Source: Flavitalea plasmicola
GTDB taxonomy: Bacteria > Bacteroidota > Bacteroidia > Chitinophagales > Chitinophagaceae
Direction: 5' to 3'
Assembly (NCBI RefSeq): GCF_030546645.1
Contig: NZ_JAUOTO010000009.1
Location: 62,001 to 126,000 of the forward strand
Length of the DNA: 64,000 nt
The position numbers and the translations under genes are program-made. Every line of letters begins with the position of its first letter. Position 1 is the stretch's first letter. The notes under the pieces are model-generated. The model was given only the letters and a program-made list of their open reading frames with translations. It searched no databases and was not told the origin of the DNA. Positions 4,219 to 23,524 of this stretch are shown piece after piece.

Positions 4219-4224
4219 CCTGCA

Positions 4225-5217: not shown

Positions 5218-6690
5218 ATGACGCCGATCAACCGTTTGCTTACCATTGACAAGGACCTTGCCGTGCCTGTATATCTCCAGATTGCCAACGGCATTGTAGG
5301 TATCATCAAGCAGGGTGTTCTGAAGCCGGGCATGGCGCTGCCACCCAGCCGGAGCCTTTCCGGCGCATTGGGCATTCACCGTAAGACAGTATTGGCGGCT
5401 TATGACGAGCTGCTGGCGCAGGATTGGGTGGAGTCCTTTGAACGGAAAGGATTGTATGTCTCGGAAAACCTGCCTGAGATCAAGCCGCGGCAGATGGCGG
5501 CTTCGAAGGCTGGTTATGTTTACCCTGAAAGGACGGCATTCCCTGTGCGTGAGAAAAAATTCCAGTATGCCGGGACCTATACACCTGTCCGGGAGAGGCT
5601 GGTCTTCAACGACGGATTTCCCGACACACGCCTGGCTCCTGTGGACCTGCTGATACGGGAATACCGGCGATTTGCCCATTACAAGTTCACGGCGAAGTAT
5701 TTATCCTACGGTCCCGAGCAGGGTTCGGAAAATCTAAGGACAGCGCTTTCTAAATTTTTGAACGAGACCCGTGGCCTGCAGGTATCGCCCGAGCAATTAC
5801 TCATAACGAAGGGGGTACAGATGGCACTTTATCTCACAAGCCAGGTGCTGCTGGAATGGGGAGATCATGTAATAGTGGGAGAACCGGGATATGTGGGCGC
5901 CACCCAGGTGTTGGAAAATGCCGGGGCCCGGGTGAATTTCGTACCTGTGGATGAGGGAGGCATCGTTGTCGATGCTGTGGAAGAGCTTTGCCGCCGGAAA
6001 AAAATAAGGTTGCTGTACCTCATTCCCCATCATCATAATCCAACCACGGTCACACTTACGCCAGCGCGGAGAATGCAGTTGCTGGAACTGGCTATGAAAT
6101 ATCAATTTGCCGTCCTGGAAGATGATTATGATTTTGACTTTCAGTATTCCACGAGCCCTATTTTGCCTTTGTCCAGCATAGATCATTATGGCAATGTGAT
6201 CTATGTAGGTTCCTTCTGCAAGACAATTGCACCGGCCATTCGTATCGGCTTTATGGTGGCGCCGGCGAACCTGATCCGGGAAGCCACGTGCCTTCGCCGG
6301 CTTGTGGACAGGCAGGGCGAACAACTGCTGGAGGAGGCTATTGCCAATCTGCTAAAACATGGGGATATCGGCCGGCATCTGAAAAAGGCCAACAAGATAT
6401 ACCACGCGCGACGGGACCTGCTTTGTTCTATGCTGCAGGATGAGCTGGCAGGCAAGATACGGTTTACTGTGCCGGATGGAGGATTTGCCGTATGGGCTCA
6501 ATATACGGGAAGGACCACGGCGAGGGCTGTGGCGGAACAGGCGCGGCGGATGGGGCTGTATGTTAGTACAGGGGAGGAGTATTATCATACTCCTCCACCC
6601 CGGCCCAATGCCGTACGATTGGGGTTTGCTTCCATGAATGAAAAGGAGATGGAAGAGGCTGTGGGAATATTGAAGAAGGCGATCGGGTAG
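5218..6690 (+). CDS. MocR/PdxR family regulator (GntR wHTH + aminotransferase domain)
   Basis: A 490-residue protein. Residues 12-82 are a GntR-type winged helix (LPPSRSLSGALGIHRKTVLAAY is the recognition region). Residues about 125-485 form a class I aminotransferase-like domain, with Lys335 in GSFCKTIAPAIRIG as the pyridoxal-phosphate lysine and HHHNPTT plus EDDYDFDF as cofactor-contacting motifs. Members use PLP, or a PLP adduct of an effector amine, to control transcription, usually of a divergent gene. The divergent EamA-type exporter is the likely target, and the repeat touching the start codon suggests autoregulation. The stop lies 1 bp from the convergent M14 peptidase stop. Confidence 0.93.
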   Translation: MTPINRLLTIDKDLAVPVYLQIANGIVGIIKQGVLKPGMALPPSRSLSGALGIHRKTVLAAYDELLAQDWVESFERKGLYVSENLPEIKPRQMAASKAGYVYPERTAFPVREKKFQYAGTYTPVRERLVFNDGFPDTRLAPVDLLIREYRRFAHYKFTAKYLSYGPEQGSENLRTALSKFLNETRGLQVSPEQLLITKGVQMALYLTSQVLLEWGDHVIVGEPGYVGATQVLENAGARVNFVPVDEGGIVVDAVEELCRRKKIRLLYLIPHHHNPTTVTLTPARRMQLLELAMKYQFAVLEDDYDFDFQYSTSPILPLSSIDHYGNVIYVGSFCKTIAPAIRIGFMVAPANLIREATCLRRLVDRQGEQLLEEAIANLLKHGDIGRHLKKANKIYHARRDLLCSMLQDELAGKIRFTVPDGGFAVWAQYTGRTTARAVAEQARRMGLYVSTGEEYYHTPPPRPNAVRLGFASMNEKEMEEAVGILKKAIG

Positions 6691-6691
6691 T

Positions 6692-9478
6692 TTATTGCGG
6701 ATCAGCAGGGACATACATCTCATTGAATAGAAATTTAAATGCCCCGTGCGTCTGGGCCCGGAAAGTGATCTCGGGACCGAAGGCGTACAGCTTCCCTTTG
6801 CCGACAGTAGCTACGAAAGCGGCTATGCCATTGCGCAGGTAGGCCTGGCCCCAGGCCCAGCCGCTGCGCAGGGGTTTGTCGGTGGCGAACCAGGCGATGG
6901 GGCGTATCTGGCCGGAAGTATAGGCAGCCGGTGAGATGTTGAAGACCGGGCTTTGTTCGAAATAGATATCGGCTTTGCCGCTCATGCCCCATGCTGCCGG
7001 CTGGGTGGAATCCACGCTGACCTGCAGCACGCTGCCGGGGACATAGAATTTTTCTCCGGGCAATTTCCTTTCTTTTCCTCCCACTAATTCGGTGAGTGCG
7101 TCCTGGACCGGCAGACCGAGGTGATAAGCCAGGTTGGTGCTGGCGCCGATGGTGACGATGTTGCCGCCTTCTTCCAGGAATTTTCTCAGACGTGGAATAG
7201 ACTTGTCCGCGGTGATGCGACCCAGGTGGGAGCGGTATTCTTCGGGAATGTCTTCCGGCTTGGGCTGACGGCCGCCAAAGCGGCCGCGGCCGGGCATGGT
7301 GGCGCCGGGGGTGGGCAGGGGCGGAATGGCACCCGATACAAAAATGATCAGGTCGAATCTGGCATGGAGGTCGACGCTGTCTATGTCTTTAGGATAAATG
7401 ACCTCTACGGGAAAATGGTATTGCTCTGCGATCCAGCGGATCCAGCCGGAGGGCAGGGAGCCGCCGTAGGTATCCCAAAGGGCTATACGCGCGGGCCGGA
7501 TGGGGCTGAGGGATGCGGGGTTGGGGGCTTGAGCGAGGAGAGAGGCTTCGGCGCCTGTGGAGGCGATGGAGGCGGTGAGGGCTGCTATTGCATGGGGGGT
7601 ATTGGGAATGTAAAAGGAACCCGGGAGGGCAGTGGCGGCATCCGTCACACGATGGACACCGATGCCCTGTTTGAGCAGGTCGTTGGCTACTGTAAATGAT
7701 TGGTTGGCCCTTGCGTCAAGGATGAAACCGCCGGAAGGCGCTGCCGCCGTGAATGTCTTTTTCGGATGCTGCTCTTCTCCATAGGGGATGCGGCGGAAGG
7801 GGCCGTCGAATGGATCCAGGATGCGCTGGAACTTTATTCCCATCTGGTAAGCCAGGGTCCAGCCGGCTGCGTCATAGGGAGGGATGGGAGGACCACCCGG
7901 GTATTGGAAGTCGTTGGGATGGTCCTGCGGTTCGAACATATCCAGAATGTGCGGGCGGAAAGCCTGGTCGGTCTTAATGATCCAGGAGCCCTTTTTATAG
8001 GAGGCGCCGGAGACCGAGAAGTCATCCGTAGCCTGATAGACGACGATGCCTGTGTTGATGAGTGCGTTGATAAAACGGATGGCTGTAGCGTTGTCGGGCT
8101 GATCGGGAATGATGTAACCGCGGGCATCGCGCAGGGCGGGATCTTTCAGGATACTATCATAGTATTTGACGGGAATGGCATTGGAGTCTTCGGGCTCGCC
8201 GGCGGCGGAATCGGCACGGGGCGACCTTCTCTCACGGGGCGCATCCCTATACAGCTGCTCAATGGCGGCGATGCGTTTAGGCGAAAGGGTCCAGTAGTCT
8301 TTTTGTCCCCGTTGGATGGAGTTGAGGCCCATCCTGTACATGTTGTACAACAGCTCGTCCCTGTAGCGGACAGCGTAGTCCAGCACGGCATAGTTCAGTG
8401 AAACGGAATAATCGATGGATTGCCTGAAATGCCAGGGTTGCGGGGTAATGGGATTGGGAGTGGCGCTGTTGGGGATCAGCCGCTGGGGGATCAGGGGCAC
8501 TGTAGCCGGCGTGGGGCTGCCGATGATCTCTGTCAAAAGTCCGATCATGTTATGGAAGTAGGTAGTAGTACGGAGGCCGCCGTTGTACCAGGTGGAAAAG
8601 ACGGAACCCGAGCGCTGGGTATAGCCCGGCTTGCCTTCTACGTTAAGGCGATTGTTCATGGCGGCGCCTACCGCGTCGATGCTGGTGAGGATCAGCGGGT
8701 CGAAAACGTAGTTAAAAGGATCGCGATAAGGAGGGCCTGCCAGTACGGAGCCGGCGGGACCTGTCTGGTGGTGATTATACATGATCTGGGGCAGCCATTC
8801 GATGAAGAGCTGGCGACCTATGTTCTGTGTCTCTTTCAGGTTCAGCATGAAGAAGTCGCGGTTATTGTCATGACCTGCATATTTTTCATACAAGCGGGGA
8901 ACATTCTCCAACGATCTTTTTTCAGGCACGGGATTGCGCATATACCAGGAGGATACCAACTCCTGTCCGTCGGGGTTGTCATGTGTAAGGAGGATGATCA
9001 CATTGTCCAGGATCTGCAGGGTTTCCGGGTCTTTACGGCTGATGAGCTGCCAGGCCGTCTCGATCAGCTGGTGGGTGCCTACTGTTTCGGTGGCGTGAAG
9101 GCCGCCATCGATCCATACTACTGCCTTGCCTTTGGCTGCCAGCGCATGGGCCTGTTCGTCAGTAAGGCCTTCGGCATGGGCCAACTGCTGAGAGACCGTC
9201 TTGTAGCGGTCCAGATCCCGGATATTTTTAGGAGATGAAACGATGAGCATGAGCTGTGTCCGGCCTTCTTCGGTCTTGCCGATCTCTACCAGGCGGACCC
9301 GATCCGACGCGGCTGCCAGCTTGCGGAAATAAGCTTCCGTTTGGGTGTAGGTGGCCAATTGATAATCGTCACCGATGTTGAAGCCGAAATGTTGTTTGGG
9401 CGCAGGAATATGCTGGGCGTGCAGGGCATGGATATTGTAAAAGAAAATGATGGCCATTGCGGCGGCGAGCTTTCTCAT
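6692..9478 (-). CDS. Secreted M14 family zinc carboxypeptidase-like protein
   Basis: A 928-residue exported protein (signal peptide about 1-21, cleaved after ALHAQ). The N-terminal half is an M14 metallopeptidase domain with zinc ligands His128 and Glu131 in GGLHATET and His235/236 in MYNHHQTG, the usual H-x-x-E...H arrangement. DGGLHATET and HDNPDGQE resemble the large M14 proteins common in Bacteroidota. The C-terminal part (about 640-920) looks like a GATase1-type (ThuA-like) domain often fused to such peptidases. It probably acts in the periplasm on peptides or modified amino acids. It is monocistronic, with convergent and divergent neighbours. The ATG at 9478 is the start. Confidence 0.88.
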   Translation of the reverse strand: MRKLAAAMAIIFFYNIHALHAQHIPAPKQHFGFNIGDDYQLATYTQTEAYFRKLAAASDRVRLVEIGKTEEGRTQLMLIVSSPKNIRDLDRYKTVSQQLAHAEGLTDEQAHALAAKGKAVVWIDGGLHATETVGTHQLIETAWQLISRKDPETLQILDNVIILLTHDNPDGQELVSSWYMRNPVPEKRSLENVPRLYEKYAGHDNNRDFFMLNLKETQNIGRQLFIEWLPQIMYNHHQTGPAGSVLAGPPYRDPFNYVFDPLILTSIDAVGAAMNNRLNVEGKPGYTQRSGSVFSTWYNGGLRTTTYFHNMIGLLTEIIGSPTPATVPLIPQRLIPNSATPNPITPQPWHFRQSIDYSVSLNYAVLDYAVRYRDELLYNMYRMGLNSIQRGQKDYWTLSPKRIAAIEQLYRDAPRERRSPRADSAAGEPEDSNAIPVKYYDSILKDPALRDARGYIIPDQPDNATAIRFINALINTGIVVYQATDDFSVSGASYKKGSWIIKTDQAFRPHILDMFEPQDHPNDFQYPGGPPIPPYDAAGWTLAYQMGIKFQRILDPFDGPFRRIPYGEEQHPKKTFTAAAPSGGFILDARANQSFTVANDLLKQGIGVHRVTDAATALPGSFYIPNTPHAIAALTASIASTGAEASLLAQAPNPASLSPIRPARIALWDTYGGSLPSGWIRWIAEQYHFPVEVIYPKDIDSVDLHARFDLIIFVSGAIPPLPTPGATMPGRGRFGGRQPKPEDIPEEYRSHLGRITADKSIPRLRKFLEEGGNIVTIGASTNLAYHLGLPVQDALTELVGGKERKLPGEKFYVPGSVLQVSVDSTQPAAWGMSGKADIYFEQSPVFNISPAAYTSGQIRPIAWFATDKPLRSGWAWGQAYLRNGIAAFVATVGKGKLYAFGPEITFRAQTHGAFKFLFNEMYVPADPQ

Positions 9479-9682
9479 GTACAGGCGTTTGTGCGTTCAG
9501 ACGAATTTATCCAATAAATATGGGGGCGTGCGAAAAAATACACCAACGGGCGAATGAAAAATAGGTGTTTATATGTAATTTTTCTAAAAAAACGACCCTT
9601 CTTTGATAAGGCAGAAATCTTAGAAGAGATTATGCGTTACTATACAATTGGTTAAGTGCTTATTTCAACGCCATTGACAGGT

Positions 9683-12310
9683 ATGAGAACTTTTTTTAAT
9701 GGATTGTCCGGAATTCAACGGAAGATAACGTGGCTATTGCTTTTCTCCATAGCATCCCTCTGCCTGGTGGGGTGGCTGATCTTTTCCAACAAGGCGAACA
9801 TGAAGAACGAGAGGTACTGGATCGACCATACCTATTCCGTGATCGAGCAGATCGAGCGGATAGACAGTGAGATGGCGGAGGGTGAGGCTTATTCTCTTCA
9901 GTATAGTATCAGTGGTGCGGACACTTTAAAGGCGCGCATGGCGGAGTCCCATGGACTGTTGGAGCAATATCTCACCCGGCTGGAGGAGCTAACGGAAGAC
10001 AATGTGCTTCAGCGGACCTATCTGCGGGAGCTGTCGGGCTATACGCACCAGCTGGGGATATTTGTGGATAGTATTGTTTATCTCGGGACGGCGGTGATAG
10101 ACCGGCCAAGTGCGGGTATGAAGGCCGCGGCCATGATCCACCGGATGAAAGGGGCATTGCGTTCCATGATGCGGGAAGAGCGAAACCTGCTTACCCAGCG
10201 GCAGGCGGCCAGACAGAGCAATGAGCGAGGGAGCACCTATATGCTCATTACGGGTTCGGCGCTGGCTTTTCTGTTCATCGTAGTCATCCTCCTTCAACTG
10301 AACAGGGATATTGTTCTGCGAAAAAATGCGGAAAAGAATCTTCTCCAAAGTGAATTAAAATACCGGATGCTCATCGAGAATGCCGGCGCCGTGATCTACT
10401 CCACGAATGAAGAAGGGTATATTACGTTTGTCAGCGCCAAGGCGATGGAGCTGACGGGCTATTCCGCGGAGGCGCTGCAGGGTAAGCATTTCTCGATGCT
10501 GATAGATCCTGCCAGCCTGCGGGAGGTCAGGAAGCATTATTTCAATCAGCTGAAAAGTGGTGTCCGGGAAACCTCTTTCAGCTTCCGTATACTTACACGT
10601 GATAAGGAGATAAAGTGGGTGGAGCAATTTGCCGTGCTTTTGCTGCGGCGGGGAAAACCCGCTGGCTTTCAGTGTATCGTCAGGGATATTTCCGAAACGC
10701 ATCGTATGAAGGAGGAACTGGAGAGGTCGAGGGCGCATTACCAGCAGCAATTGATCGCGGCCACGAGGGAGGCGCAGGCGGCCAAAGGGATGCAGGAGCA
10801 GTTCCTTGCCAATATGAGCCATGAGATCCGAACGCCGATGAATGGCATACAGGGGATGACCAACCTATTACGTGAGACCGTTCTTACAGAAGGGCAGAAA
10901 GAATTCGTCGACATTATCAAACTATCTGCGGACAATTTGCTGGTGATCATCAACGATATCCTGGATTTCTCCAAGATCAAAGCGGGTAAGCTTGCCATCG
11001 AGAAAATAGATTTCAGGCTGAAAGATGTACTGGAGAATGTGAAAGCGATCTTTATCCACCGGGTGAAGAAAAAGGGATTGGCTTTTCACCTGTCGACAGA
11101 TGCACGGCTCCCTCATTTAATGAAAGGGGACCCTTACCGGCTGAACCAGGTATTGATCAATCTTATCGGCAATGCCATTAAATTTACGGAGCGAGGCGCC
11201 GTCACTTTGAAAGTCGACTTACAGCAACGAACGGCCGAGCATGCCGAGCTGCTGTTTACGGTGATGGATACCGGCATTGGTATCCCGGCTGAGCGGCTGC
11301 CGGAGATCTTCGACAATTTCTCCCAGGCGGGCCTCGATATATCACGGAAGTATGGCGGCACCGGATTGGGGCTGGCTATCAGCAAGCAGTTGGTGCAATT
11401 ACAGGGTGGAAATATTCAAGTCGAAAGTGAAGCGGGGAAGGGATCTGTCTTTAGTTTTTCCCTCTCCTATGGTAATAGTGAGCGGGAGGAGACGGCGAGC
11501 GGGCGGGCAGCGACGGCCATGACTGATCACAGCCAGTTATTGACGGGCCGGCGATTCCTGGTGGCGGAAGATAATGTAGTGAACCAGAAACTGGTGGAAT
11601 ATGTGCTGACAAAGGCCGGGGGCATCGTTCAGCTGGCCAACGACGGCAGGGAAGCCGTGGACCTGTTGCTGCAGGACAATGGTTATGATCTCGTCATCAT
11701 GGACCTGCAGATGCCAGTCATGGATGGCTATGGGGCGACAAAGCTCATTCGGGATGAGCTGAAGCTGCAGATCCCGATCATTGCCATGACGGCTACGGCC
11801 CTGGTAGGCGAGCAGGTACGCTGCCTGGATGCGGGGGTGGACGAGTATATGACCAAACCTTTTGATTTTAAAGAACTATACAAAAAGATCGCCGGGCTGC
11901 TGGATGGGCGCAGTGCGCTGCCTTTGTTCCAGGATGCGGGAGCGATGGCGGATGAATTGCCGGCGTATGACCTGAGCCTGCTACGGCAGATGGATGACCG
12001 GCATTATCTATGGGACCGGCTTAATGCCTTTATAAGTGAATCTCCCGGAAGGATAGCTGAAATGCGGGGGGCTGCTCTCGGCGGCGAGCACGAGCAGGTG
12101 GTCTACCGTGCCGGCAGAATGAAAAGAAGCGCCCGTGTGCTGCAAGCGCATGTCCTGCATAGCCTGTTGGCGCAGATAGAAGTTCAAAGCAGGGAGGGGG
12201 ACGAGGTGGCGGGGCTGGTGCAAATGGTGCAGGACGTATATGAGGGGATGGAGCCGCTGCTGAAGGAGGAAATAGAGCGGATAGGATTTGTACTGAGTCC
12301 GGAGGAGTAG
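9683..12310 (+). CDS. Hybrid sensor histidine kinase (periplasmic 4-helix sensor, PAS, HisKA, HATPase, REC, degenerate HPt)
   Basis: The frame opens with GTG at 9656, but the ATG at 9683 precedes the first membrane helix directly and is preferred (875 residues). Order: membrane helix about 11-37, CHASE3-like helical sensor, second membrane helix near 190-207, PAS (230-335), HisKA with phospho-acceptor His380 (NMSHEIRTPMNG), HATPase (about 485-595), REC with Asp674 (IMDLQMPVMDG), and a C-terminal HPt-like helical domain. In that last domain the HPt His of the H-x-L-K-G pattern is replaced by Gly811 (AGRMKRSA), so it should not accept phosphate. No regulator partner is adjacent except the next two-component pair. 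Confidence 0.9.
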   Translation: MRTFFNGLSGIQRKITWLLLFSIASLCLVGWLIFSNKANMKNERYWIDHTYSVIEQIERIDSEMAEGEAYSLQYSISGADTLKARMAESHGLLEQYLTRLEELTEDNVLQRTYLRELSGYTHQLGIFVDSIVYLGTAVIDRPSAGMKAAAMIHRMKGALRSMMREERNLLTQRQAARQSNERGSTYMLITGSALAFLFIVVILLQLNRDIVLRKNAEKNLLQSELKYRMLIENAGAVIYSTNEEGYITFVSAKAMELTGYSAEALQGKHFSMLIDPASLREVRKHYFNQLKSGVRETSFSFRILTRDKEIKWVEQFAVLLLRRGKPAGFQCIVRDISETHRMKEELERSRAHYQQQLIAATREAQAAKGMQEQFLANMSHEIRTPMNGIQGMTNLLRETVLTEGQKEFVDIIKLSADNLLVIINDILDFSKIKAGKLAIEKIDFRLKDVLENVKAIFIHRVKKKGLAFHLSTDARLPHLMKGDPYRLNQVLINLIGNAIKFTERGAVTLKVDLQQRTAEHAELLFTVMDTGIGIPAERLPEIFDNFSQAGLDISRKYGGTGLGLAISKQLVQLQGGNIQVESEAGKGSVFSFSLSYGNSEREETASGRAATAMTDHSQLLTGRRFLVAEDNVVNQKLVEYVLTKAGGIVQLANDGREAVDLLLQDNGYDLVIMDLQMPVMDGYGATKLIRDELKLQIPIIAMTATALVGEQVRCLDAGVDEYMTKPFDFKELYKKIAGLLDGRSALPLFQDAGAMADELPAYDLSLLRQMDDRHYLWDRLNAFISESPGRIAEMRGAALGGEHEQVVYRAGRMKRSARVLQAHVLHSLLAQIEVQSREGDEVAGLVQMVQDVYEGMEPLLKEEIERIGFVLSPEE

Positions 12311-12353: not shown

Positions 12354-14450
12354 ATGAGCCAATATCGCCTCTTGCCGGGGCTTTTGACCGGCCTATCCCT
12401 TTTACTCCTTTCCGCCGTCGTCGCCCAGTCCGACCGGACCTCACAGCGCCATCACGGCACTGAAAGGGCCCATATTGTCCAGGATCCCGCGCATGTGTCT
12501 GCCTTACTGGAGGAAGCCGACAGGCTTAAAGAACTTTCCAAACTCGATTCCGCCGCGTTGCTGTGCCGGCAGGCATTGCAGCTGAGCCTTTTCCTGAAGG
12601 ACAGTTTTCTTATTGCCAGGTCTTACTATGGGTTGGGACAATGGGCCCTTGCCGCCAATCGGAAGGAGGAAGCCCTGGCCTATCTTCAGCGGTCACTATC
12701 GGTGCGGTGGGAAAAAGAGCAGTCTTCCCATACAGCGAGGGTTTATAACGACATGGGATACCTGTACGGTAATAAGGGTGAATTGGATAAGCAGCGGGAG
12801 TGGTATTTGAAGGCGATGCGTATCTACGACAGGATCAATGATGCTGACGGTATGGCAGAAACGCTCAGCAATCTCTCCGGCAGCAGCCTGGAGCTGGGCA
12901 ATAAGCAGGAAGCTATCCAGTATGCGACCCAGGCGCTGCGGATCCGGGAGAGGGGTCAGGATAAGGATATACTTGCCTTGTCTTATAACAATCTTTCGCA
13001 GATCTATCTTCAGATGGACAGTATGGACCAGGCTATGCGCCTTCAGCGGGAGGGGCTGAGGTATGCGGAACTCAGCGGATCGAAGAGGAGGCTGGCGCAA
13101 AGCTACACGGGTATGTCCCTCATGTTGAACCGGAGGGGGAAGAATGAGGAGTCATTCGAGTATGAGAAAAAGGCCATCCGGCTTTGCCGTGAGACGGGGG
13201 ATTCCGGTATGCTGGCCCACCGCTGTATAGCTGCTGCGGTACTGTCCGGGACCTTGAAGGATTCGGTGGGAGCGGAGGGTTATTTTGACGAGGGGGTTAA
13301 GATCTCATTGGCCATCGACGATAAGAGCAATCTCAGGGACCTATATTATTACCGGACCGTTTTTTATAAGGAGCGGAAGGATTTTTACCGGGCGTATGAA
13401 AGCCTGAAGAAGTATTATGCTTATAAGGATAGTATGCTGCATGCGGAGACGGCGCGCAACATAGCGGAGATCCAGGCGCGGTATGAGACGGAGAAGAAGG
13501 ATAAGGCTATTGGGGAATTGAAGGCTAATGAGCGTATCCATCAGCTGGAGATAGAGAAGCAGGACAATGAGATCAGTTTGTTGTCGCAATCGGGGGAGCT
13601 GCAGAGTACCCGGATCGCGCAGCAGGAGGTGGAGCTGGATAAAAGTGAATTGCAGGCAAAGAGCAAGGAGCAGGAATTGCAGCTGGCGCGGGCGGAAAAG
13701 GAGCTGAAAGAGCGGCAATTGCAGCAGCAAAAGCAGACAAGGAATATCCTTATTGGAAGCGTTGTCCTGCTTGCACTGATCGCCGCGGGAATATTCAATC
13801 GCTGGCAGCTGAAGAAGAAGCTGCAACAACAGGCGGCGTTGCTGGAGATGCGTAATCTTATTGCCCGTGACCTCCATGACGAGCTGGGGTCTACGCTTAC
13901 CAGCATTCACATCCTTTCGCAGGTGAGCCGTAACCACCTGGAAAAGGACCAGTCCGGGGCCTATTCCCTGCTGGAGAAGATCACGGAGCAGTCCCGTCAG
14001 ATGCAGCAGAGCATGAGCGATATCGTGTGGGCTATCAGGAGTGACAATGACAAGATCGAGAATATGATGGTGCGGATGCGCGAATATCTTGCCCAGACGT
14101 TGGAGGCCAGGGAGATCGCTATCCGATTTGAAGCCGCGGAAGAGCTGCTGGGCCATTCCTTTTCCATGCAGCAGCGGAAGGAGATCTTCCTTATTTTCAA
14201 GGAAGCGGTGAACAATGCAGCCAAGTATTCCCATTGTACTTTAATGGAAGTGTCTTTCCGGCTCTGCAATGCCCGGATCCTGCTGGAGGTGAAGGACAAC
14301 GGGGTGGGTTTTGAGCCGGATAAGCCGCGGAGCACCAATGGCCTGAACAATATGCGTGTGCGGTCGGCTTCCCTGGATGGCCGCTGCCATATCCAGGCGT
14401 CGCCGGGGCGGGGGACTACCGTACTGTTGGACCTGCCGGCGGCTACATGA
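12354..14450 (+). CDS. TPR-domain sensor histidine kinase (NarX/LiaS-type HisKA_3)
   Basis: A 698-residue membrane kinase: signal peptide (about 1-24), five to seven TPR repeats (about 65-345) in the periplasm, a long coiled coil (about 365-460), one membrane helix (464-482), then a short cytoplasmic kinase. The dimerisation motif is RDLHDELGSTL with phospho-acceptor His508, followed by an HATPase domain with the N-box EAVNNAAKYS and DNGVGFE. Kinases of this build pair with LuxR/NarL-type regulators, and the very next gene (46 bp downstream) is one. The stop codon lies inside a 16-bp palindrome that probably serves as operator for the regulator gene. The periplasmic TPR domain suggests the signal is a protein or peptide. 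Confidence 0.92.
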   Translation: MSQYRLLPGLLTGLSLLLLSAVVAQSDRTSQRHHGTERAHIVQDPAHVSALLEEADRLKELSKLDSAALLCRQALQLSLFLKDSFLIARSYYGLGQWALAANRKEEALAYLQRSLSVRWEKEQSSHTARVYNDMGYLYGNKGELDKQREWYLKAMRIYDRINDADGMAETLSNLSGSSLELGNKQEAIQYATQALRIRERGQDKDILALSYNNLSQIYLQMDSMDQAMRLQREGLRYAELSGSKRRLAQSYTGMSLMLNRRGKNEESFEYEKKAIRLCRETGDSGMLAHRCIAAAVLSGTLKDSVGAEGYFDEGVKISLAIDDKSNLRDLYYYRTVFYKERKDFYRAYESLKKYYAYKDSMLHAETARNIAEIQARYETEKKDKAIGELKANERIHQLEIEKQDNEISLLSQSGELQSTRIAQQEVELDKSELQAKSKEQELQLARAEKELKERQLQQQKQTRNILIGSVVLLALIAAGIFNRWQLKKKLQQQAALLEMRNLIARDLHDELGSTLTSIHILSQVSRNHLEKDQSGAYSLLEKITEQSRQMQQSMSDIVWAIRSDNDKIENMMVRMREYLAQTLEAREIAIRFEAAEELLGHSFSMQQRKEIFLIFKEAVNNAAKYSHCTLMEVSFRLCNARILLEVKDNGVGFEPDKPRSTNGLNNMRVRSASLDGRCHIQASPGRGTTVLLDLPAAT

Positions 14451-14489
14451 TGATGTAGGACGGAAGAAGGATGGGGGGACGTAAATTGA
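14443..14489 (+). promoter_or_regulatory. Palindromic operator and -7 box for the LuxR-type regulator gene
   Basis: CTACATGATGATGTAG (14443-14458; arms CTACAT/ATGTAG) is followed after 23 bp by the -7-like TAAATTGA at 14482-14489 and the regulator's ATG at 14497. The same 16-mer with the same 23-bp gap precedes the downstream secreted-protein operon. The position matches a class II activator site replacing the -33 element. Confidence 0.6.
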
Positions 14490-14496
14490 GAAGTAT

Positions 14497-15144
14497 ATGC
14501 CTGTAAGAATATTAATGTATGATGATCATGAAGCGCTGAGGCAGAGCATGGAGACTTTGATCCGTGAGGAGCCTGACATGGAGATGATCGCCGCTATGTC
14601 CAATGCGGAGACGGTGGAGACGGATATCCGGGAGCTGAAGCCGGATGTGGTGCTGATGGATATCGATATGCCTGCCGTGAATGGGGTATCGGCTGTGAAG
14701 CGGATCCGGCAGATGGATGCGGTCCTGCCTGTTATCATGCTGACCGTGTTTGATGACAATGAGAATATCTTTAATGCCGTGTGTGCGGGAGCTTCGGGCT
14801 ATATCCTGAAGCGATGTGCTACGGAAGAGATCCCTTCCGCCATCAGGAATGTCCTTAGCGGGGGGGCTCCTATGACGGGCACGGTAGCCCGTAAGATCCT
14901 GCAGATGGTGCCGGCGGCCAAGGGTCCGGATACGGAAAATGTGGACCTTTCACAACGGGAGGTCCAGATCTTACAGTTGCTGGCCAGGGGGTTCAGCTAT
15001 AAGATGATCGCCGTGGAAATAAAAATAAGCATGGACACTGTACGCTTTCATATCAAGAATATCTACGATAAGCTTCACGTACATTCCGCCCCGGAAGCAG
15101 TGTCCAAGGGATTGAAGGGAAAGCTGATAAGCCTTTTGTTCTAA
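14497..15144 (+). CDS. NarL/FixJ (LuxR-type) response regulator
   Basis: A 215-residue regulator. The receiver domain (1-120) has the acidic pair at Asp9/Asp10, the phospho-acceptor Asp55 (LMDIDMPAVNG), Thr83 and Lys105. The GerE/LuxR helix-turn-helix (about 148-212) has the recognition region YKMIAVEIKISMDTVRFHI. It is the cognate partner of the TPR kinase immediately upstream. Identical palindromes before its own gene and before the downstream four-gene operon suggest that it activates both. Confidence 0.95.
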   Translation: MPVRILMYDDHEALRQSMETLIREEPDMEMIAAMSNAETVETDIRELKPDVVLMDIDMPAVNGVSAVKRIRQMDAVLPVIMLTVFDDNENIFNAVCAGASGYILKRCATEEIPSAIRNVLSGGAPMTGTVARKILQMVPAAKGPDTENVDLSQREVQILQLLARGFSYKMIAVEIKISMDTVRFHIKNIYDKLHVHSAPEAVSKGLKGKLISLLF

Positions 15145-15161
15145 GGGAGTTGGATAGATGC

Positions 15162-15208
15162 CTACATGATGATGTAGTTGCAGTGGGCAGCCTGAAAGGG
15201 TACTTTCG
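15162..15208 (+). promoter_or_regulatory. Palindromic operator and -7 box for the secreted-protein operon
   Basis: CTACATGATGATGTAG at 15162-15177 is an exact second copy of the 14443-14458 palindrome. The -7-like TACTTTCG at 15201-15208 (one mismatch to TAnnTTTG) again begins 23 bp after the palindrome, and the ATG follows at 15215. There is no separate -33 TTTG, as expected when an activator occupies that site. Confidence 0.62.
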
Positions 15209-15214
15209 GGTATT

Positions 15215-16609
15215 ATGAAACAATATATCTTCCTCCTATGTGTAAGCGCCGCCTTGTATATGAATACAAAGGCACAGACGCCTTTTAAGCCGGTCGCTCC
15301 AAATGCTGCAAAGCCGGTGTCCGGCGTCGCTATGAAGCCGGCGAACTCCACCGCCAGCAGTACAAAGACCATCGTCTCTCCCCGATTGTTGACGGCTGTT
15401 CAGAAACAGGTGGTCTTAAAAAATCCGCCAACGATGGCACCTGGGGCTGAGCATAGCATCAGCGACGTGACACCTGCTGAAGGCACGCGGGGTACCTATA
15501 TCACCATCAGCGGACAGCATTTTGGGAACGCTACTTCGGATATTGTAGTAAAGGTGAATGGCGTGGCGGCCATCGTTACGGGTATGTCCGACAACCAGAT
15601 CCTGGCCATCGTGCCGGATAAGGCGGGCACGGGGCCTATCTCCGTAGCTGTAAAAGGTAAATGGTCCTCCGGCGCTGGGTTTATCTATGATTGGAATGCC
15701 GGCATGTCCTTTGTCGCGGGTGTCGGGCAGAACTCTCCCGGCTATGCGGATGGAACGGGAAATGCCGCCAAGTTCAACCATCCAACGGGTCTGGCCCGCG
15801 ATGCGATTGGCAATATCTATATAGCGGATTGTGAGAACAACCGTATCCGCAAGATGAACAATTTCGGGCAGGTGACGACCGTCGCGGGCAGCGGCGCTGT
15901 GGGTTTTGCCGATGGGACGGGCACGGGGGCGATGTTTCATCATCCGTATTCGGTGGCTGTCGATCACTCCGGCAATGTATATGTCGCCGACCTGGATAAC
16001 TATCGGATCAGGAGGATCACACCGGCTGGTGTGGTAACCACTTTTGCGGGCAATGCGACGCAACGTGCTGTGGATGGGATAGGGACCGCTGCCGGTTTTA
16101 GCTCTCTGTATGGCGGCATATGCGTCGATGGTTCGGACAATGTCTATGTAGGTGACGGCGGTTGGATCAGAAAGATCACGCCCACGGGTGTGGTAACCAC
16201 CATTGCAAGAGGTTTTAACGGCATTGTGGCAATGATCTGCAGAAATAATATGCTCTATGTCGCTGATGGAAGCACCATCAGTAAGGTGGGGCTTTCGGGC
16301 GGCGTGTATCCCATCGCCGGCAACAATAAATTATATTCCAACGTGGACGGCTATGGAGATGCTGTGGGATTTGTCGGTATCGTAGGAATGGCCATGGATG
16401 CCTCCGGCGTCATTTACATCACGGAGGAAAATGCTGACGATTATCCGCCTGTCCATGTACGCAGGGTCAATACGGATGGGTTTGTCCAGACCCTCGGGGG
16501 TGTCGGCCTTGGCACGGGGATGCTGGCGGGCTCTGTCGGAGATGCCACCAATACCTTCTACCAGGCCGACAAGACATGGAATTGCATACGTAAAGTAACC
16601 ATACAATGA
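15215..16609 (+). CDS. Exported IPT/TIG-domain NHL-repeat protein
   Basis: A 464-residue exported protein (signal peptide about 1-21, ending TKAQ). After a low-complexity linker (about 22-70, rich in Ala, Thr, Ser) comes an IPT/TIG immunoglobulin-like domain (about 76-158; VTPAEGTRGTYITISGQHFG). The rest is an NHL beta-propeller (about 165-460) with repeats such as GLARDAIGNIYIADCENNRI and VAVDHSGNVYVADLDNYRI. Such propellers are binding platforms, and no catalytic site is apparent. It opens a run of four exported proteins, overlaps the next gene by 4 bp (ATGA), and has the LuxR-type palindrome upstream. Confidence 0.9.
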   Translation: MKQYIFLLCVSAALYMNTKAQTPFKPVAPNAAKPVSGVAMKPANSTASSTKTIVSPRLLTAVQKQVVLKNPPTMAPGAEHSISDVTPAEGTRGTYITISGQHFGNATSDIVVKVNGVAAIVTGMSDNQILAIVPDKAGTGPISVAVKGKWSSGAGFIYDWNAGMSFVAGVGQNSPGYADGTGNAAKFNHPTGLARDAIGNIYIADCENNRIRKMNNFGQVTTVAGSGAVGFADGTGTGAMFHHPYSVAVDHSGNVYVADLDNYRIRRITPAGVVTTFAGNATQRAVDGIGTAAGFSSLYGGICVDGSDNVYVGDGGWIRKITPTGVVTTIARGFNGIVAMICRNNMLYVADGSTISKVGLSGGVYPIAGNNKLYSNVDGYGDAVGFVGIVGMAMDASGVIYITEENADDYPPVHVRRVNTDGFVQTLGGVGLGTGMLAGSVGDATNTFYQADKTWNCIRKVTIQ

Positions 16610-17160
16610 GAACTATCATCTTTTTTCTGTTGATGGGCGTAGGGTATATAGCCTGTGCCCAAACCCTGCCGCCCAGGCTGTCGGGAAAGCCGCAGCCGGT
16701 GGGTCCGAATATCCGTTACTACAGGCCGCCGGATCTGGAGGTCACGAGTTTTAGTGTGAAAAGTATCGTCAAGGATGTGAATCGGGGGGCTTTCGTGGTG
16801 ACGGTGAGCGTGGGAGTACGCAACATCGGGGAACTGCCTTCGAACGTGCTGACGACGCTGAAGTGCTTTTACGCTGACGCATCGGGAACATATAAGCCGC
16901 CTGCCAATCTTCCTCCGGCTGCGAATGACCATGGGTCGATGGCGCCGTGGACCTATTGTGCAGCGGAACCCAAGCTACCGATCGTAAAAGGCGGGCAAAG
17001 CTGGGGCGGGGACCTGACGTTCGAGGTGTTGATCAGCGATGTGCGGGGGGGTGACAAGTTCTACCTGATCCTGCTGGCGGATTTTTATAATAATTCAAAG
17101 GAGTCGAACGAGCGTAATAATTATTCGACACCGGTGCTGGTGACTCCTCCTAATCATTAA
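16606..17160 (+). CDS. Exported CARDB-like (Ig-fold) domain protein
   Basis: A 184-residue exported protein: signal peptide about 1-18 (cleavage after ACAQ), Pro-rich spacer, then one Ig-like fold (about 42-180). VTSFSVKSIVKDVNRG, VSVGVRNIGE and the closing ADFYNNSKESNERNNYS are typical of CARDB (cell-adhesion-related) domains. Its start overlaps the stop of the TIG-NHL gene (ATGA), so the two are translationally coupled. It is probably an adhesive or structural accessory in the envelope or outside the cell. No enzymatic motif is seen. Confidence 0.75.
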   Translation: MRTIIFFLLMGVGYIACAQTLPPRLSGKPQPVGPNIRYYRPPDLEVTSFSVKSIVKDVNRGAFVVTVSVGVRNIGELPSNVLTTLKCFYADASGTYKPPANLPPAANDHGSMAPWTYCAAEPKLPIVKGGQSWGGDLTFEVLISDVRGGDKFYLILLADFYNNSKESNERNNYSTPVLVTPPNH

Positions 17161-17169
17161 ACTTTTTTT

Positions 17170-18492
17170 ATGAAATGTTTTATTCTTGGGTTATTGGTTT
17201 TTTTAAGCGCTTTGTGCGGGCAAGGACAGACATTGGGGGAAAGGGCGAAGGGGACGGCCAAGCAGAAAGTCGGAGATAAGATGGATCAGGGTATTAGTGG
17301 TGGGATAGATTCGAGTGTGAGTAAGGCCGGGAGGGCGATCGGGAATTTATTTAAGAAGAAGCCGAAGAAGGTGGATGAGAATAGCGGGGCCGGGAGCGCC
17401 AGTGGGGCTACGGCAGGTAGTACCATGTCGGGAGTGAGAGAGGGAAATGGAGATGCTATGCCGGGCGGGCCGGTGGTTTCGGGGGGAGCGTATGGAGATT
17501 TTGTGCCGGGCGCGAATGTCCTTTTCGAAGAGCATTTTGAGAAGGACGCCTTGTTGGATTTTCCGGCGCAATGGAATACCAATGGCAGCGGTAAGGTGGT
17601 GAATATCGAAGGGCAGCGGGGAAAGTGGCTGGACATAGCGCATAATTCCGTTGTCAATCCTGTGCTGAACAAGGCTTTGCCGGAGAACTGCACGATCGGA
17701 TTTGACCTTTTTCTGCAGGCGCAGGGGGATCAGCTGACGCCTTATATTCAGTTCGGACTTACTTCCGTGTCGGACATTTTGAAAGACGATATAGCCTATA
17801 AGGATAAATTCTTTGTGGGTATCAACCGATACCGTGAGAACGACGGACATAGCCTGGAGTATGGGTTGAAGGATGTGGTAGGCAATAAGAACGATTTTCC
17901 CCTGCCCTCCTACGCCAACAGGGTGCTGCATATCGATATGGCCATCAACAAGACGCGGATACGCGTGTATGCGGACCAGGTGAAGCTGATAGATCTGCCC
18001 AGGGCATTGACCCCTGGCATGCGGAATAATTTTTATTTATCCAGCGTGTATATGGTGCCTGCTCCCCAGGTGGATGTGCTGGTGGGCAATATCCGGATCG
18101 CTTCGGCGGAGACGGATGCCCGGAGCCTGCTGGTGAAACAATTATTGGAAGATGGCAAGGCGGTGACCAATGATATTTTATTCGATGTCAACAGTGATGT
18201 GATCAAGCCGTCGTCGTATGCTGTTATCGACCAGTTGGGGGATGCGCTAGCGAAGAACCCTTCTGTGCGGGTGCTGATCGTGGGTCATACGGACAGCGAT
18301 GGCGCGGCCGCGCATAATCTGGATCTGTCGAAACGGAGGGCTGCCGCCGTGAAGAATTATATCATGACCCATTTTTCCATCGAGGATGCCCGATTGCAGT
18401 CGGATGGAAAGGGAGCTACGCAGCCCGTGGCTGCCAATACGTCGGATGCGGGGAAGGCTAAGAACAGGAGAGTGGAATTTGTCAAGCTGTAA
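17170..18492 (+). CDS. OmpA family outer-membrane/periplasmic protein
   Basis: A 440-residue exported protein (signal peptide about 1-19). Residues 20-115 are low-complexity, rich in Gly, Ser, Lys. Residues about 118-305 look like a concanavalin/LamG-type beta-sandwich (FEEHFEKDALLDFPAQWNTN near its start). The C-terminus (about 325-440) is an OmpA domain with ILFDVNSDVIKPSSY and GHTDSDGAAAHNLDLSKRRA, which binds peptidoglycan diaminopimelate. It is third in the four-gene operon and could anchor the other exported proteins to the cell wall. It starts 9 bp after the CARDB-like gene. Confidence 0.88.
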   Translation: MKCFILGLLVFLSALCGQGQTLGERAKGTAKQKVGDKMDQGISGGIDSSVSKAGRAIGNLFKKKPKKVDENSGAGSASGATAGSTMSGVREGNGDAMPGGPVVSGGAYGDFVPGANVLFEEHFEKDALLDFPAQWNTNGSGKVVNIEGQRGKWLDIAHNSVVNPVLNKALPENCTIGFDLFLQAQGDQLTPYIQFGLTSVSDILKDDIAYKDKFFVGINRYRENDGHSLEYGLKDVVGNKNDFPLPSYANRVLHIDMAINKTRIRVYADQVKLIDLPRALTPGMRNNFYLSSVYMVPAPQVDVLVGNIRIASAETDARSLLVKQLLEDGKAVTNDILFDVNSDVIKPSSYAVIDQLGDALAKNPSVRVLIVGHTDSDGAAAHNLDLSKRRAAAVKNYIMTHFSIEDARLQSDGKGATQPVAANTSDAGKAKNRRVEFVKL

Positions 18493-18504
18493 ATAAATTA
18501 TGAA

Positions 18505-19731
18505 ATGATGAGACGTCTATTGATAGGATGTTGCTTTTTGTTCAGTATTTGGAGCGATCTATATGCACAGAACCCGCCTCCCCGGCGGGATACGATACAT
18601 TTTGCCCAGTGGAGGCAGGAGATCACCAGAGCGCCTGTGCTCACGGGAGGAAGCCAGCCCATCATTATCGTGCCGAACGGGCAGCCTTATTGTTTCGATA
18701 AGCAGCTGTACCTGAAGATGAAGGTGGGCCGTATGGATGCGGAACAAAGCATTTACCTGGACACGCATAATGGGCTGACAGGGATACTGCCTCCTTCTTC
18801 CCATGGCGGCGCTGTACTGGAGATCATGCCTGAACTGGAAAATTTCACCTTTACGGTGATGAGCCTGAAGGGGAATGTGTACATGTACAAGAACCAAAAA
18901 AGCAAGAATGGCATCGACCATTGGGTACATACGGGCAATACACAGAATTTCCTGTATCAATCGCCTACGGCAACGCGACCCGCGGGAGCAGATATGATGC
19001 GGAAGTCGGAGATGCGTGCCTATTGCGACAACAAGATCAATGCCAGGGCTTACCGGTATGATGGCAGTGTCAATACCTTTTTTATTTATGGCGACAGATT
19101 CCCGGACAAGCTACATCCCCTGAAATTCCTGGGCGCTTTCGGCGTCGGGTATATGTATTGCGAAGAAGGGCTTTACCTGATCATGGAGATGAATTTCGGG
19201 GCCAACTATGTCCGGATAGGGTCAATGGAAAATGTACATAACTGCTTTAATCCGGCTCCTTTCAAGGTGCAGGAGGATGCGTTCATTGCCAAGCAACATC
19301 AGGAGATACAGGAGGAACAGGCGGACGTGGCCCGTAAACAGGAACAGGTGACGGGAGAATGCAGGGCGGAGAAACAGGCGATCGTCGATTTTAAAAGAGC
19401 GTTGAACCAGAAGCATGAGGAGCTGGTGCGCAAGAGCCAGCAAGGCAACCTTTACCACGATAGCGCGGCACAGCGGGCGATGATCAATATGATGGACCCG
19501 CTGGATCAGGTGCGGGAGAGCATTTTAAATATAAAGCTCAATATCTGCATGTCGCACAGGCATGGGGGAAATGCTGTCAGCTGCCTGAGGGAACAGCTGA
19601 GCGCTCTACAGGATGCGGAGACCAGGATGATGGCGCTGGATCAGCAATATGCCACTCAGCCGGCGATCGCAAGTGCGAAGAAGGGAAAAATTTGGTGGGA
19701 CCTGCAGAATACATTGCCGATCTGTAATTAA
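18505..19731 (+). CDS. Exported protein of unknown function, C-terminal coiled coil
   Basis: I do not recognise the family. The 408-residue product has a signal peptide (about 1-21, ending DLYAQ), an N-terminal region to about 255 predicted as mostly beta, and a helical part (about 258-325, many Glu, Gln, Lys) likely to form a coiled coil. Six cysteines (59, 175, 215, 245, 288, 345) in the first 350 residues are many for an exported Bacteroidota protein and could form disulphides. It begins 12 bp after the OmpA-like gene and is probably last in the same operon. Its stop overlaps the convergent GNAT gene's stop by 4 bp. Confidence 0.8.
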   Translation: MMRRLLIGCCFLFSIWSDLYAQNPPPRRDTIHFAQWRQEITRAPVLTGGSQPIIIVPNGQPYCFDKQLYLKMKVGRMDAEQSIYLDTHNGLTGILPPSSHGGAVLEIMPELENFTFTVMSLKGNVYMYKNQKSKNGIDHWVHTGNTQNFLYQSPTATRPAGADMMRKSEMRAYCDNKINARAYRYDGSVNTFFIYGDRFPDKLHPLKFLGAFGVGYMYCEEGLYLIMEMNFGANYVRIGSMENVHNCFNPAPFKVQEDAFIAKQHQEIQEEQADVARKQEQVTGECRAEKQAIVDFKRALNQKHEELVRKSQQGNLYHDSAAQRAMINMMDPLDQVRESILNIKLNICMSHRHGGNAVSCLREQLSALQDAETRMMALDQQYATQPAIASAKKGKIWWDLQNTLPICN

Positions 19732-22214: not shown

Positions 22215-23444
22215 ATGAAAAGAGCAACCACAATGAGCATGCTTACCGGCATCGGACTGGTAGTTTCGATGCTTGTATTATCTATTGGCTGTAAAAAAGA
22301 TGTGAAGCCCACTGCACAGGCGGGGCAGGAGACCGCTACCACTTCCCGGGCGGTGACTTATACCCTGGTGTGGGCAGACGAGTTTGATGGCGCCGGCGTC
22401 AACACTTCCAACTGGAACGTCATTACCGGCAACCCGGGGGTCAACAATGAGAAAGAGTATTATCAACCGGCGAATGCTACGGTGACGGGCGGGAACCTGG
22501 TGATCACGGCAAGGCAGCAGAGCGTGGGTGGGCAGCCTTATACTTCGGCGAAGCTGGAGACGTATGGCAAGTTTTCCACGACCTATGGACGCATTGAAGC
22601 ACGGATCAAGCTGCCGATGGTGCAGGGAACCTGGCCGGCCTTCTGGATGCTGGGCAATAGCATCAATACGGGGGCGGGATGGCCTACCTGCGGGGAGATC
22701 GACATCATGGAGCATGTCAACACTTCCAATACTATTTTGGGGACTATGCATTGGAACGGCGGCAGCGGGCATGTACAATATGGCAGCAGCACGAACACGA
22801 CTCCCGGGGATTATCATATTTATGCGGTGGAATGGGATGCCGGCAGCATCCGGTGGTATGTCGACAATACGCTGTATGTGACCGGGAATATTGCCAACAA
22901 TATCAATAATACCGGGGCGTTCCACAATCCTTTCTTTATCATCCTTAACCTGGCTATCGGCGGGGATCTGCCCGGCAATACCATCGACAATGGCGCATTG
23001 CCCACGACTATGATGGTGGATTATGTGCGGGTGTATGATATCAACAATTCGGGTGGATCGGGTGCTCCTATTGGTCAGACGATCACCCTGAAGGGAAACA
23101 ACGGTTTATATGTGAGCAGCGAGAACGGGACACAGGCGATGAACTGCAACCGTGCTACCGCGCAGGGATGGGAACAGTTCCTTGTGGTGGATGCCGGCGG
23201 GGGTAAGGTGTCGCTGCAAAGTATGGGTAAGTATGTGAGCAGTGAGAACGGGGCGCAGGCTATGACATGCAATCGTGCGACGGTGCAGGGGTGGGAGCAG
23301 TTTACCTGGATCAATAATGCGGATGGGACGATCTCGCTGCAGGGGAATAATGGGATGTTTGTCAGCAGTGAGAATGGAACGCAGGCGATGACGTGTACCC
23401 GGGCGACGGCGCAGGCGTGGGAGAGTTTCCGCGTGAATCAATAA
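22215..23444 (+). CDS. Glycoside hydrolase family 16 lipoprotein with fascin-like beta-trefoil domain
   Basis: A 409-residue lipoprotein (lipobox LSIGC, Cys26, then Lys-Lys). Residues about 48-275 are a GH16 beta-jelly-roll with the catalytic motif GEIDIME (nucleophile Glu161, Asp163, acid/base Glu166), pointing to beta-1,3- or mixed-linkage glucanase (laminarinase) activity. Residues about 288-409 hold three near-identical units, each starting Y/FVSSENGTQAM and ending RATxQxWExF, at 299-322, 340-363 and 382-405. They form a fascin-like beta-trefoil, probably for carbohydrate binding. The anchor suggests outer-membrane surface display. It is a single gene. The LytS/LytTR pair follows on the same strand. 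Confidence 0.93.
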   Translation: MKRATTMSMLTGIGLVVSMLVLSIGCKKDVKPTAQAGQETATTSRAVTYTLVWADEFDGAGVNTSNWNVITGNPGVNNEKEYYQPANATVTGGNLVITARQQSVGGQPYTSAKLETYGKFSTTYGRIEARIKLPMVQGTWPAFWMLGNSINTGAGWPTCGEIDIMEHVNTSNTILGTMHWNGGSGHVQYGSSTNTTPGDYHIYAVEWDAGSIRWYVDNTLYVTGNIANNINNTGAFHNPFFIILNLAIGGDLPGNTIDNGALPTTMMVDYVRVYDINNSGGSGAPIGQTITLKGNNGLYVSSENGTQAMNCNRATAQGWEQFLVVDAGGGKVSLQSMGKYVSSENGAQAMTCNRATVQGWEQFTWINNADGTISLQGNNGMFVSSENGTQAMTCTRATAQAWESFRVNQ

Positions 23445-23524
23445 GGTTGATGGGGTGTCGACACAAATGAGGGGTCTGTCTACACATGGTGGTGTTTGGC
23501 GGATTTGGCTGTAACTTAGATGTT

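Follow-up and report, generated by a model that had tools for sequence, protein, structure and literature searches.

A 64,000-nucleotide stretch of DNA from Flavitalea plasmicola (NZ_JAUOTO010000009.1, positions 62,001 to 126,000; hereafter the window) encodes a NarL-type response regulator whose gene (14497-15144) is flanked by two identical copies of a palindrome, CTACAT-N4-ATGTAG. This palindrome is very probably the operator of the regulator, which would use it to activate its own gene and the four-gene operon that follows. The first-pass annotation of the window had claimed that the palindromes define the regulon of a LuxR-type regulator. That claim is now supported by conservation of the sites in orthologs, by their co-occurrence with the regulator across genomes, by target sites unlinked to the regulator, and by covariation between the operator letters and the recognition helix.

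Two identical palindromes flank the regulator gene

The sequence CTACATGATGATGTAG (CTACAT-GATG-ATGTAG) occurs in the window at 14443-14458 and at 15162-15177. Palindrome 1 ends 38 bp before the ATG of the regulator gene (14497), and palindrome 2 ends 37 bp before the ATG of the operon (15215). Each has its own -7-like box exactly 23 bp behind it, TAAATTGA (14482-14489) at the first and TACTTTCG (15201-15208) at the second. The 16-mers, their distances and the boxes are as the first-pass annotation had given them. It had also stated that no -33 element is present. This is true of palindrome 1, where GAC occupies the relevant place, and wrong for the second promoter, where a TTG (15178-15180) abuts palindrome 2 and lies 20 bp ahead of the TA of the -7 box. 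The second promoter therefore has the layout TTG-N20-TACTTTCG. The kinase gene upstream ends inside palindrome 1 (stop codon TGA, 14448-14450), so the predicted operator overlaps the end of that gene.

The palindrome is rare. A motif search of the window returned four matches, namely the two places on both strands, versus a mean of 0.41 in shuffled sequence, and no third copy was found in the window with up to 3 mismatches. The whole 8.73-Mb genome contains only two CTACATN4ATGTAG sites, both flanking the regulator; the chance expectation for 12 fixed bases is about 0.5 by our own arithmetic, and a control, the pattern read backwards, has no match. The motif is thus not scattered through coding DNA, a possibility the first-pass annotation had raised. 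With up to 2 mismatches there are 185 sites genome-wide versus 336 for the reversed control, and therefore a larger degenerate regulon is not visible by mismatch search. The shortened pattern TACATN4ATGTA occurs 4 times in the genome (9 for its control), that is, twice beyond the palindrome pair.

The pair is conserved in orthologs and co-occurs with the regulator

Close relatives of the regulator were sought in the contigs of 84,980 species, giving 37 loci. Thirteen loci with regulators 67-80% identical to that of the window (L047-L059) form the ortholog set, in which the DNA on both sides of the regulator was read. With at most one mismatch, the upstream palindrome is present in all 10 testable loci outside Dyadobacter (8 exact; L052 and L058 with one mismatch). 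Upstream of L050 only 26 bases are available, which makes it untestable on that side; its downstream site is present. The downstream palindrome is found in 11 of 11 loci outside Dyadobacter (8 exact; L047, L048 and L052 with one mismatch), and a TTG abuts it in seven (L047, L048, L050 and L053-L056). Both palindromes are kept in 10 of the 13 orthologs, across several genera; the palindrome had been expected before the orthologous genes, and it is missing in the two Dyadobacter loci. Across the orthologs the arms are retained and the 4-base centre varies (GATG, GATC, GATA, AATC, AATG, ATTC and others). With their unrelated flanks, the two sites are not the product of a local duplication. The kinase stop codon lies within the palindrome in L047, L048, L053-L056 and L058 as well.

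Co-occurrence was measured in 394 genomes of the window's family, a group that includes Niastella- and Paraflavitalea-like genomes. A regulator match with E <= 1e-70 counted as an ortholog and was found in 20 genomes. Eighteen of these 20 have an exact palindrome versus 58 of the other 374 (Fisher one-sided p 3e-12). The 20 genomes hold 43 exact sites in total (reversed control, 20), and the two without an exact site, G211 (L116) and G305 (L127), have sites with one mismatch; the regulator gene of L116 is the same as that of L052. Among the 58 genomes with the site and no close ortholog, at least five (G226, G255, G292, G107 and G064) have a paralog with an aromatic recognition helix, as defined below, beside the site (L140, L141, L143, L156 and L314). 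The reversed control is widespread in the same genomes, and chance sites are therefore expected among the 58.

The palindrome also stays where the kinase gene is missing. A member of the kinase's cluster precedes the regulator in L047, L048, L052-L059 and L064. No kinase homolog is present near the regulator in L049, L051, L131 and L134, yet the palindromes are retained, including those of the orthologs L049 and L051.

The palindrome keeps a fixed distance from a predicted Bacteroidota-type promoter

Promoter geometry was counted behind exact palindromes in 325 sequences, with repeated contexts counted once. An orientation was called gene-reading if it led into an ATG-started open reading frame (ORF) within 20-160 nt. 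Of the 65 gene-reading orientations, 41 have a TAnnTTT[G/A] box starting 22-24 bp behind the palindrome and 21 have a TTG abutting it; among the 55 others these numbers are 2 and 5. When 11 of the 12 letters are allowed, the counts are 54/93 versus 4/81 for the box and 29 versus 5 for the TTG. In a selected set of 30 loci, which leaves out L064, L143 and most background sites, the box is present in 48/68 versus 3/50.

In flavobacteria the TANNTTTG box lies at -12 to -5, according to the portions of two studies used here (PMC6847099, PMC9723704). That position predicts transcription starts near 14494 and 15213, with both palindrome centres at -43.5. Relative to these predicted starts the palindromes occupy about -51 to -36, touching the -33 position and clear of the -7 box and the start. 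The regulator promoters would have leaders of a few nucleotides and their mRNAs would be nearly leaderless. In flavobacteria only a minor share of mRNAs is leaderless, 5.5% in a study of F. psychrophilum (PMC9723704, in the part consulted).

As at class II sites, the operator overlaps or abuts the -33/-35 position at a fixed distance from the -7/-10 box, and this geometry makes class II activation by the regulator likely. The arrangement resembles the Bacteroidota housekeeping promoter (-33 TTTG / -7 TANNTTTG) in that TTG-N20-TAnnTTT[G/A] stands behind the palindrome at many target sites. The -33 element of the general promoter is called "much less evident" in the text available to us (PMC6847099). 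Here, by contrast, the TTG adjoins the operator, which would fit an activator that helps the -33 element or takes its place.

Some unlinked sites precede homologs of the operon genes

In one genus, g85, a different small operon stands behind the regulator (L049, L051, L131, L134). Three g85 genomes contain six unlinked exact sites in all. Five of them (L102, L129, L130, L132 and L133) carry TAnnTTT[G/A] 22-23 bp downstream of the palindrome and lead into genes whose starts resemble signal peptides; the remaining one, L103, does not look like a promoter. Homologs of the window's operon genes follow three of the six sites. Behind L102 are homologs of the OmpA gene and of the 408-aa gene (53% and 35%). 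L129 has a homolog of the 408-aa gene (38%) and an OmpA-cluster gene closest to that of L056, and L133 (G261) a TIG-NHL homolog (39%). These sites were found by the palindrome alone, so the match in gene families is independent evidence. As in an autoregulated two-component regulon, the same operator stands before the regulator and before its targets, also in trans.

Outside g85, the second exact site of G044 (L106, region 3844-4950) is promoter-like on the minus strand: TACATTTA follows the palindrome at 22 bp and leads into a lipoprotein-like ORF, which is probably a further target of the regulator there. The unlinked exact sites L103, L104, L105 and L108 look like background and were set aside; L104 and L105 each fall within the 3'-terminal part of a kdsC-like ORF, which accounts for their conservation.

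Across relatives the operon is a mosaic of recurring gene families. Homologs of gene 3 behind the palindrome form a cluster of seven members including the window's (cl2), and a homolog of gene 4 comes after that of gene 3 in L102, L129, L147 and L148. Extra or imperfect sites lie inside the operon in L053-L056 and L144. Pfam comparison of 10 operon genes of relatives gave no function in common: five have no match, and the others include TIG/NHL (L133), a DUF3108-like match (L053), weak OmpA (L055) and weak collagen (L130). One gene of a palindrome-controlled operon in a Niastella relative (L055, 8383-10095, cluster cl11) matches Thiol_cytolysin (8e-27); none of the four window operon genes has this Pfam match.

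Another genome, G107 (L135-L139, L156), carries 7 exact CTACAT sites versus 1 for the control, together with an aromatic-helix regulator of another clade. Two of the five sites inspected there (L137, L138) have a -7 box at 23 bp, and G107 perhaps holds a larger regulon.

Recognition-helix residues covary with operator letters

The recognition helix of the regulator reads DTVRFHIK. Its first, fourth and fifth residues (D180, R183 and F184) are called positions 1, 4 and 5 here, and a helix with an aromatic residue at position 5 is called aromatic. In an alignment of 81 regulators (not thinned, with several genomes entered twice and locus lengths differing), a CTACAT palindrome with at least 11 of 12 letters lies in the locus for 37 of the 38 regulators with D-T-[V/I]-R-[F/Y/H] (all but L011), and for 2 of the other 43 (L063, L142). 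No CTACAT palindrome lies in the loci of aromatic regulators that depart from this pattern at position 1 or 4 (L016, L068, L071, L072), nor in those of the Dyadobacter orthologs, where Ser replaces Phe at position 5. L140-L143 had been chosen for their palindrome, and the only new fact they add is an aromatic helix beside it in three of the four.

A letter-blind scan for 6-4-6 palindromes near the regulator covered 161 loci, reduced to 137 by removal of identical genes, of which 126 had a readable helix. A site was flagged if it had an abutting TTG or a -7 box at 21-24, and 49 of the 126 loci have such a site. In the left arms of flagged sites, an aromatic residue at position 5 goes with CT at bases 1-2 in 21/21, and Ser or Thr with TC in 14/23. 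An aromatic residue at 184 accompanies CTACAT, and Ser/Thr mostly TCACAT. Position 1 goes with base 3 (Asp with A in 34/34, Glu with C in 4/4, His with C in 4/4, Phe with G in 2/2), and position 4 with bases 5-6 (Arg with AT in 34/36, Asn with TA in 6/8). Permutation gives p <= 0.002 at each of the three positions among 18 representatives under 60% identity, values that describe training data because the aromatic set had largely been seen before the rules were made.

These associations recur in separate lineages. A tree of the 126 regulators was built with the helix residues left out; it is rough, and its bootstrap had not settled. On it the aromatic label changes 8 times, and at least three of these changes are forced by well-supported branches. 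L156 (aromatic, CTACAT) clusters with Ser/Thr regulators, some of them with TCACAT, at moderate branch support (91/78). L128, sister of the window's clade, combines Glu with TGCCAT. One supported clade contains L208 (His, TCCCTA) together with L211 and L220 (Asn, TCACTA).

Two loci share the helix FTVCNHIK. In L069, from a Pedobacter relative, TAGCTA-N4-TAGCTA flanks the regulator at 5904-5919 and 6773-6788, each copy followed by TTG, which is the two-site layout of the window in other letters. In L067 one such site lies upstream, with one mismatch.

Reading rules tested on new loci

The rules were fixed in writing before new loci were examined. We then examined 110 new loci, 30 from one search and 80 of our own choosing. 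Thirteen had no readable helix and 6 were removed as at least 90% like a training regulator. This left 91, of which 18 were flagged.

The rules are right for 127 of 160 letters in the 18 new sites, both arms counted. When the helices are permuted 5000 times, the score averages 57% and never exceeds 72% (p 0.0002). Some of the 18 sites are related and few are aromatic, so this test bears mainly on the non-aromatic classes. Letters were correct in 24/24 at base 1, 15/24 at base 2, 20/28 at base 3, 26/28 at base 4, 26/28 at base 5 and 16/28 at base 6; the rules are weak at bases 2, 3 and 6.

Individual loci fall on both sides. L314 (G064, ATVQFHIR) again combines an aromatic position 5 with CTACAT; its site, CTACAT-GTTT-ATGTAG with a TTG, comes directly after the regulator. 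His at position 5 (L319, L337) goes with CCGCAT, not CT. L253 (HTVDSHIR), with TCACGC, is an exception to the position-1 rule, and L328 and L335 (STVRFHIK) have CTTCAA. Ala at position 5 goes with TCACAT and Asn with TGACAT, and neither had been covered by a rule. No flagged site was found in 73 of the 91 new loci and 77 of the 126 old ones; the scan is therefore blind to many regulators, which are either not locally autoregulated or have a different site. The TCACATN4ATGTGA site of the window's own genome (L340) has no regulator match within its 3 kb.

In the genus group of G064, G162, G232 and G281 have one exact CTACAT site each and G320 has none. At L253, TCACGC-N4-GCGTGA flanks the regulator on both sides, with a TTG behind each copy.

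On balance, Bacteroidota NarL-type regulators more likely than not share a common 6-4-6 operator directly in front of a TTG / TAnnTTTG promoter, with a near-modular code linking position 1 to base 3 (A for D or N, C for E or H, G for F), position 4 to bases 4-6 (CAT for R, CTA for N) and position 5 to bases 1-2 (CT for F/Y, TC for S/T/A). The odds that we give this generalization are clearly lower than those for the operator of the window. The family-wide rules, a more interesting claim than the operator itself, are supported but incomplete, with two named failures. One is L016 (ETVRYHVK), which lacks the predicted CTCCATN4ATGGAG in 2.8 kb, even with 2 mismatches; the other concerns Dyadobacter and is described below.

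A model of the regulon and its alternatives

The regulator has the features of a NarL/FixJ-type response regulator. Its receiver carries the phospho-acceptor Asp D55 in MDIDMP and the acidic pair D9-D10, and a HisKA_3-type kinase is encoded directly next to it. In the proposed pathway, a signal would reach the tetratricopeptide-repeat (TPR) sensor kinase, which would phosphorylate the regulator. A regulator dimer would then occupy the palindrome immediately before the -33 position, with each 6-bp arm contacted by one helix-turn-helix. The bound dimer would activate the TAnnTTTG-type promoter of its own gene, a positive autoregulation, and the promoter of the four-gene exported-protein operon.

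The regulator might instead bind the palindromes and repress, with negative autoregulation released on signal. Many autoregulators are repressors, and the sign of an effect is unreadable from sequence. We nevertheless consider repression unlikely, since the site lies upstream of and touching -33, clear of the -7 box and the start, and its fixed spacing of 22-24 bp is the geometry of an activator beside polymerase, not that of a repressor blocking it. It is more doubtful still that a different transcription factor binds the palindrome and that the regulator is merely its neighbour or target. Linkage alone would be compatible with this, as would the exact site in 58 of 374 genomes without a close ortholog. 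However, regulator and palindrome persist together where the kinase is absent, the arm letters track the recognition helix of this regulator across clades, and in at least 5 of the 58 background genomes a site adjoins the gene of an aromatic-helix paralog.

The palindrome could also act as RNA, forming a hairpin that terminates or attenuates transcription behind the kinase and regulator genes. Its 6-bp arms and 4-nt loop suit a hairpin, which does appear in predicted folds, and each copy either overlaps a stop codon or follows one. Yet folding is no better than in shuffled sequence (z -1.32 and -0.75), there is no T run behind, and 14000-15700 has no Rfam match. The constant distance to the -7 box and the occurrence at unlinked promoters also speak against a hairpin, which we regard as very improbable. 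Finally, the pair might be a coincidence or stem from a small local duplication, and 16-base repeats as such are not unusual in 64 kb, but the pair recurs in 10 of 13 orthologs with unrelated flanks and the genome has only these two sites, which reduces this explanation to a negligible one.

Several observations weigh against an activating operator of the NarL-type regulator. The two Dyadobacter orthologs (L057, L059; 67%) lack the palindrome at either place (0/2), and the named prediction that these genomes would carry TCACATN4ATGTGA failed, with 0 exact sites in both. L011 has the same helix core, DTVRF, as the window and no site in its 3.6 kb. The -7 boxes of the window, TAAATTGA and TACTTTCG, are imperfect, and in L064 and L143, both of the aromatic class, no -7 box stands 22-24 bp behind the palindrome. 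Such a box is absent from 24 of the 65 gene-reading orientations, a class that includes background sites and spurious orientations. Activation, finally, is argued from the position of the site only.

Genes and other features of the locus

The features are listed in Table 1. The start of each of the four operon genes (15215-19731) reads as signal-peptide-like. A hybrid histidine kinase (CHASE3-PAS-HisKA-HATPase-receiver by Pfam; 9656-12310, plus strand) lies directly upstream of the TPR kinase on the same strand; in a comparison of 18 loci it stands alone in its cluster. Farther downstream on the plus strand are an ORF whose translation resembles a secreted GH16-type glycoside hydrolase (22215-23444) and two ORFs whose translations resemble a LytTR-type kinase/regulator pair (23486-25221).

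Table 1. Features of the regulator locus in window coordinates; values after domain names are those of the Pfam matches.
Feature	Position	Strand	Basis or remark
TPR-HisKA_3-HATPase_c sensor histidine kinase (698 aa)	12354..14450	+	Pfam: TPR_12 8.6e-21, HisKA_3 4.2e-11, HATPase_c 6.2e-10
Palindrome 1, predicted operator of the regulator's own promoter	14443..14458	.	Sequence and ortholog conservation
-7-like box TAAATTGA	14482..14489	+	23 bp after palindrome 1; predicted start ~14494, 3-nt leader
Response regulator of NarL type (215 aa) with receiver and GerE helix-turn-helix	14497..15144	+	Pfam: Response_reg 1.2e-25, GerE 3.9e-18
Recognition-helix codons DTVRFHIK, covarying residues D180, R183, F184	15034..15057	+	Alignment, covariation
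Palindrome 2, predicted operator of the exported-protein operon	15162..15177	.	Sequence and ortholog conservation
Candidate -33 element TTG	15178..15180	+	Adjoins palindrome 2, 20 bp before -7 box
-7-like box TACTTTCG	15201..15208	+	23 bp after palindrome 2; predicted start ~15213
Operon gene 1, exported TIG + NHL-repeat protein, 464 aa	15215..16609	+	NHL 1.8e-13, TIG 1.4e-12
Operon gene 2, 184 aa, cluster cl4	16606..17160	+	No Pfam match; signal-peptide-like start by reading
Operon gene 3, OmpA-family, 440 aa	17170..18492	+	OmpA 4.2e-21; signal-peptide-like start by reading
Operon gene 4, 408 aa	18505..19731	+	No Pfam match; signal-peptide-like start by reading

Relation to known systems and meaning

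The window regulator has its receiver and GerE helix-turn-helix in common with the NarL/FixJ (LuxR-type) regulators VraR, LiaR, NarL, DosR and DegU. Known site formats include 7-2-7 for NarL and 6-4-6 for ComA. VraR and NarL are its closest solved sequences, and the recognition helix is free of gaps in five alignments to solved DNA-binding domains (VraR and others). The alignment to the DevR/DosR chain 3c3w spans 3-200 to 2-199, so that D180, R183 and F184 equal DosR 179, 182 and 183 if no gap intervenes. In the part of a review used here, Lys179, Lys182 and Asn183 are the base contacts of DosR (PMC4082495). The covarying positions match these contacts, which places the covariation on the residues that should read the DNA. 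K194, K197 and N198, named in a DegU model (PMC9263151, in the portion consulted), share only the spacing. CTACAT-N4-ATGTAG with an abutting TTG / TAnnTTTG is not mentioned in the parts of these two papers drawn on here.

For the LacI family, a recognition code has been inferred from local autoregulation (PMC2978694). As far as the sections of that paper used here go, the likeness lies in autoregulated sites, in comparing helix residues with operator bases and in convergent changes on a tree. The LacI code involves two residues and two bases, whereas here three helix positions are involved in another protein family, the NarL-type regulators of Bacteroidota. Position-specific protein-DNA correlations have been reported for the MerR, Rex and NrtR families (PMC5045206); that work, from what its accessible portions show, shares the statistical covariation approach, and LuxR or NarL appear nowhere in its main text. 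A search of the open-licence PubMed Central literature found nothing on this operator or on helix-to-base rules for NarL-type regulators.

The genomes of this family contain many NarL-type regulators without assigned operators. Here one operator is fixed by independent comparisons, tied to a regulator and to genes for exported proteins, and placed on the unusual promoter of the phylum. If the code is true, the operators and hence the regulons of many uncharacterised regulators would be predictable from protein sequence. Which regulator controls which genes in soil Bacteroidota would then, if the rules hold, become a matter of sequence look-up.

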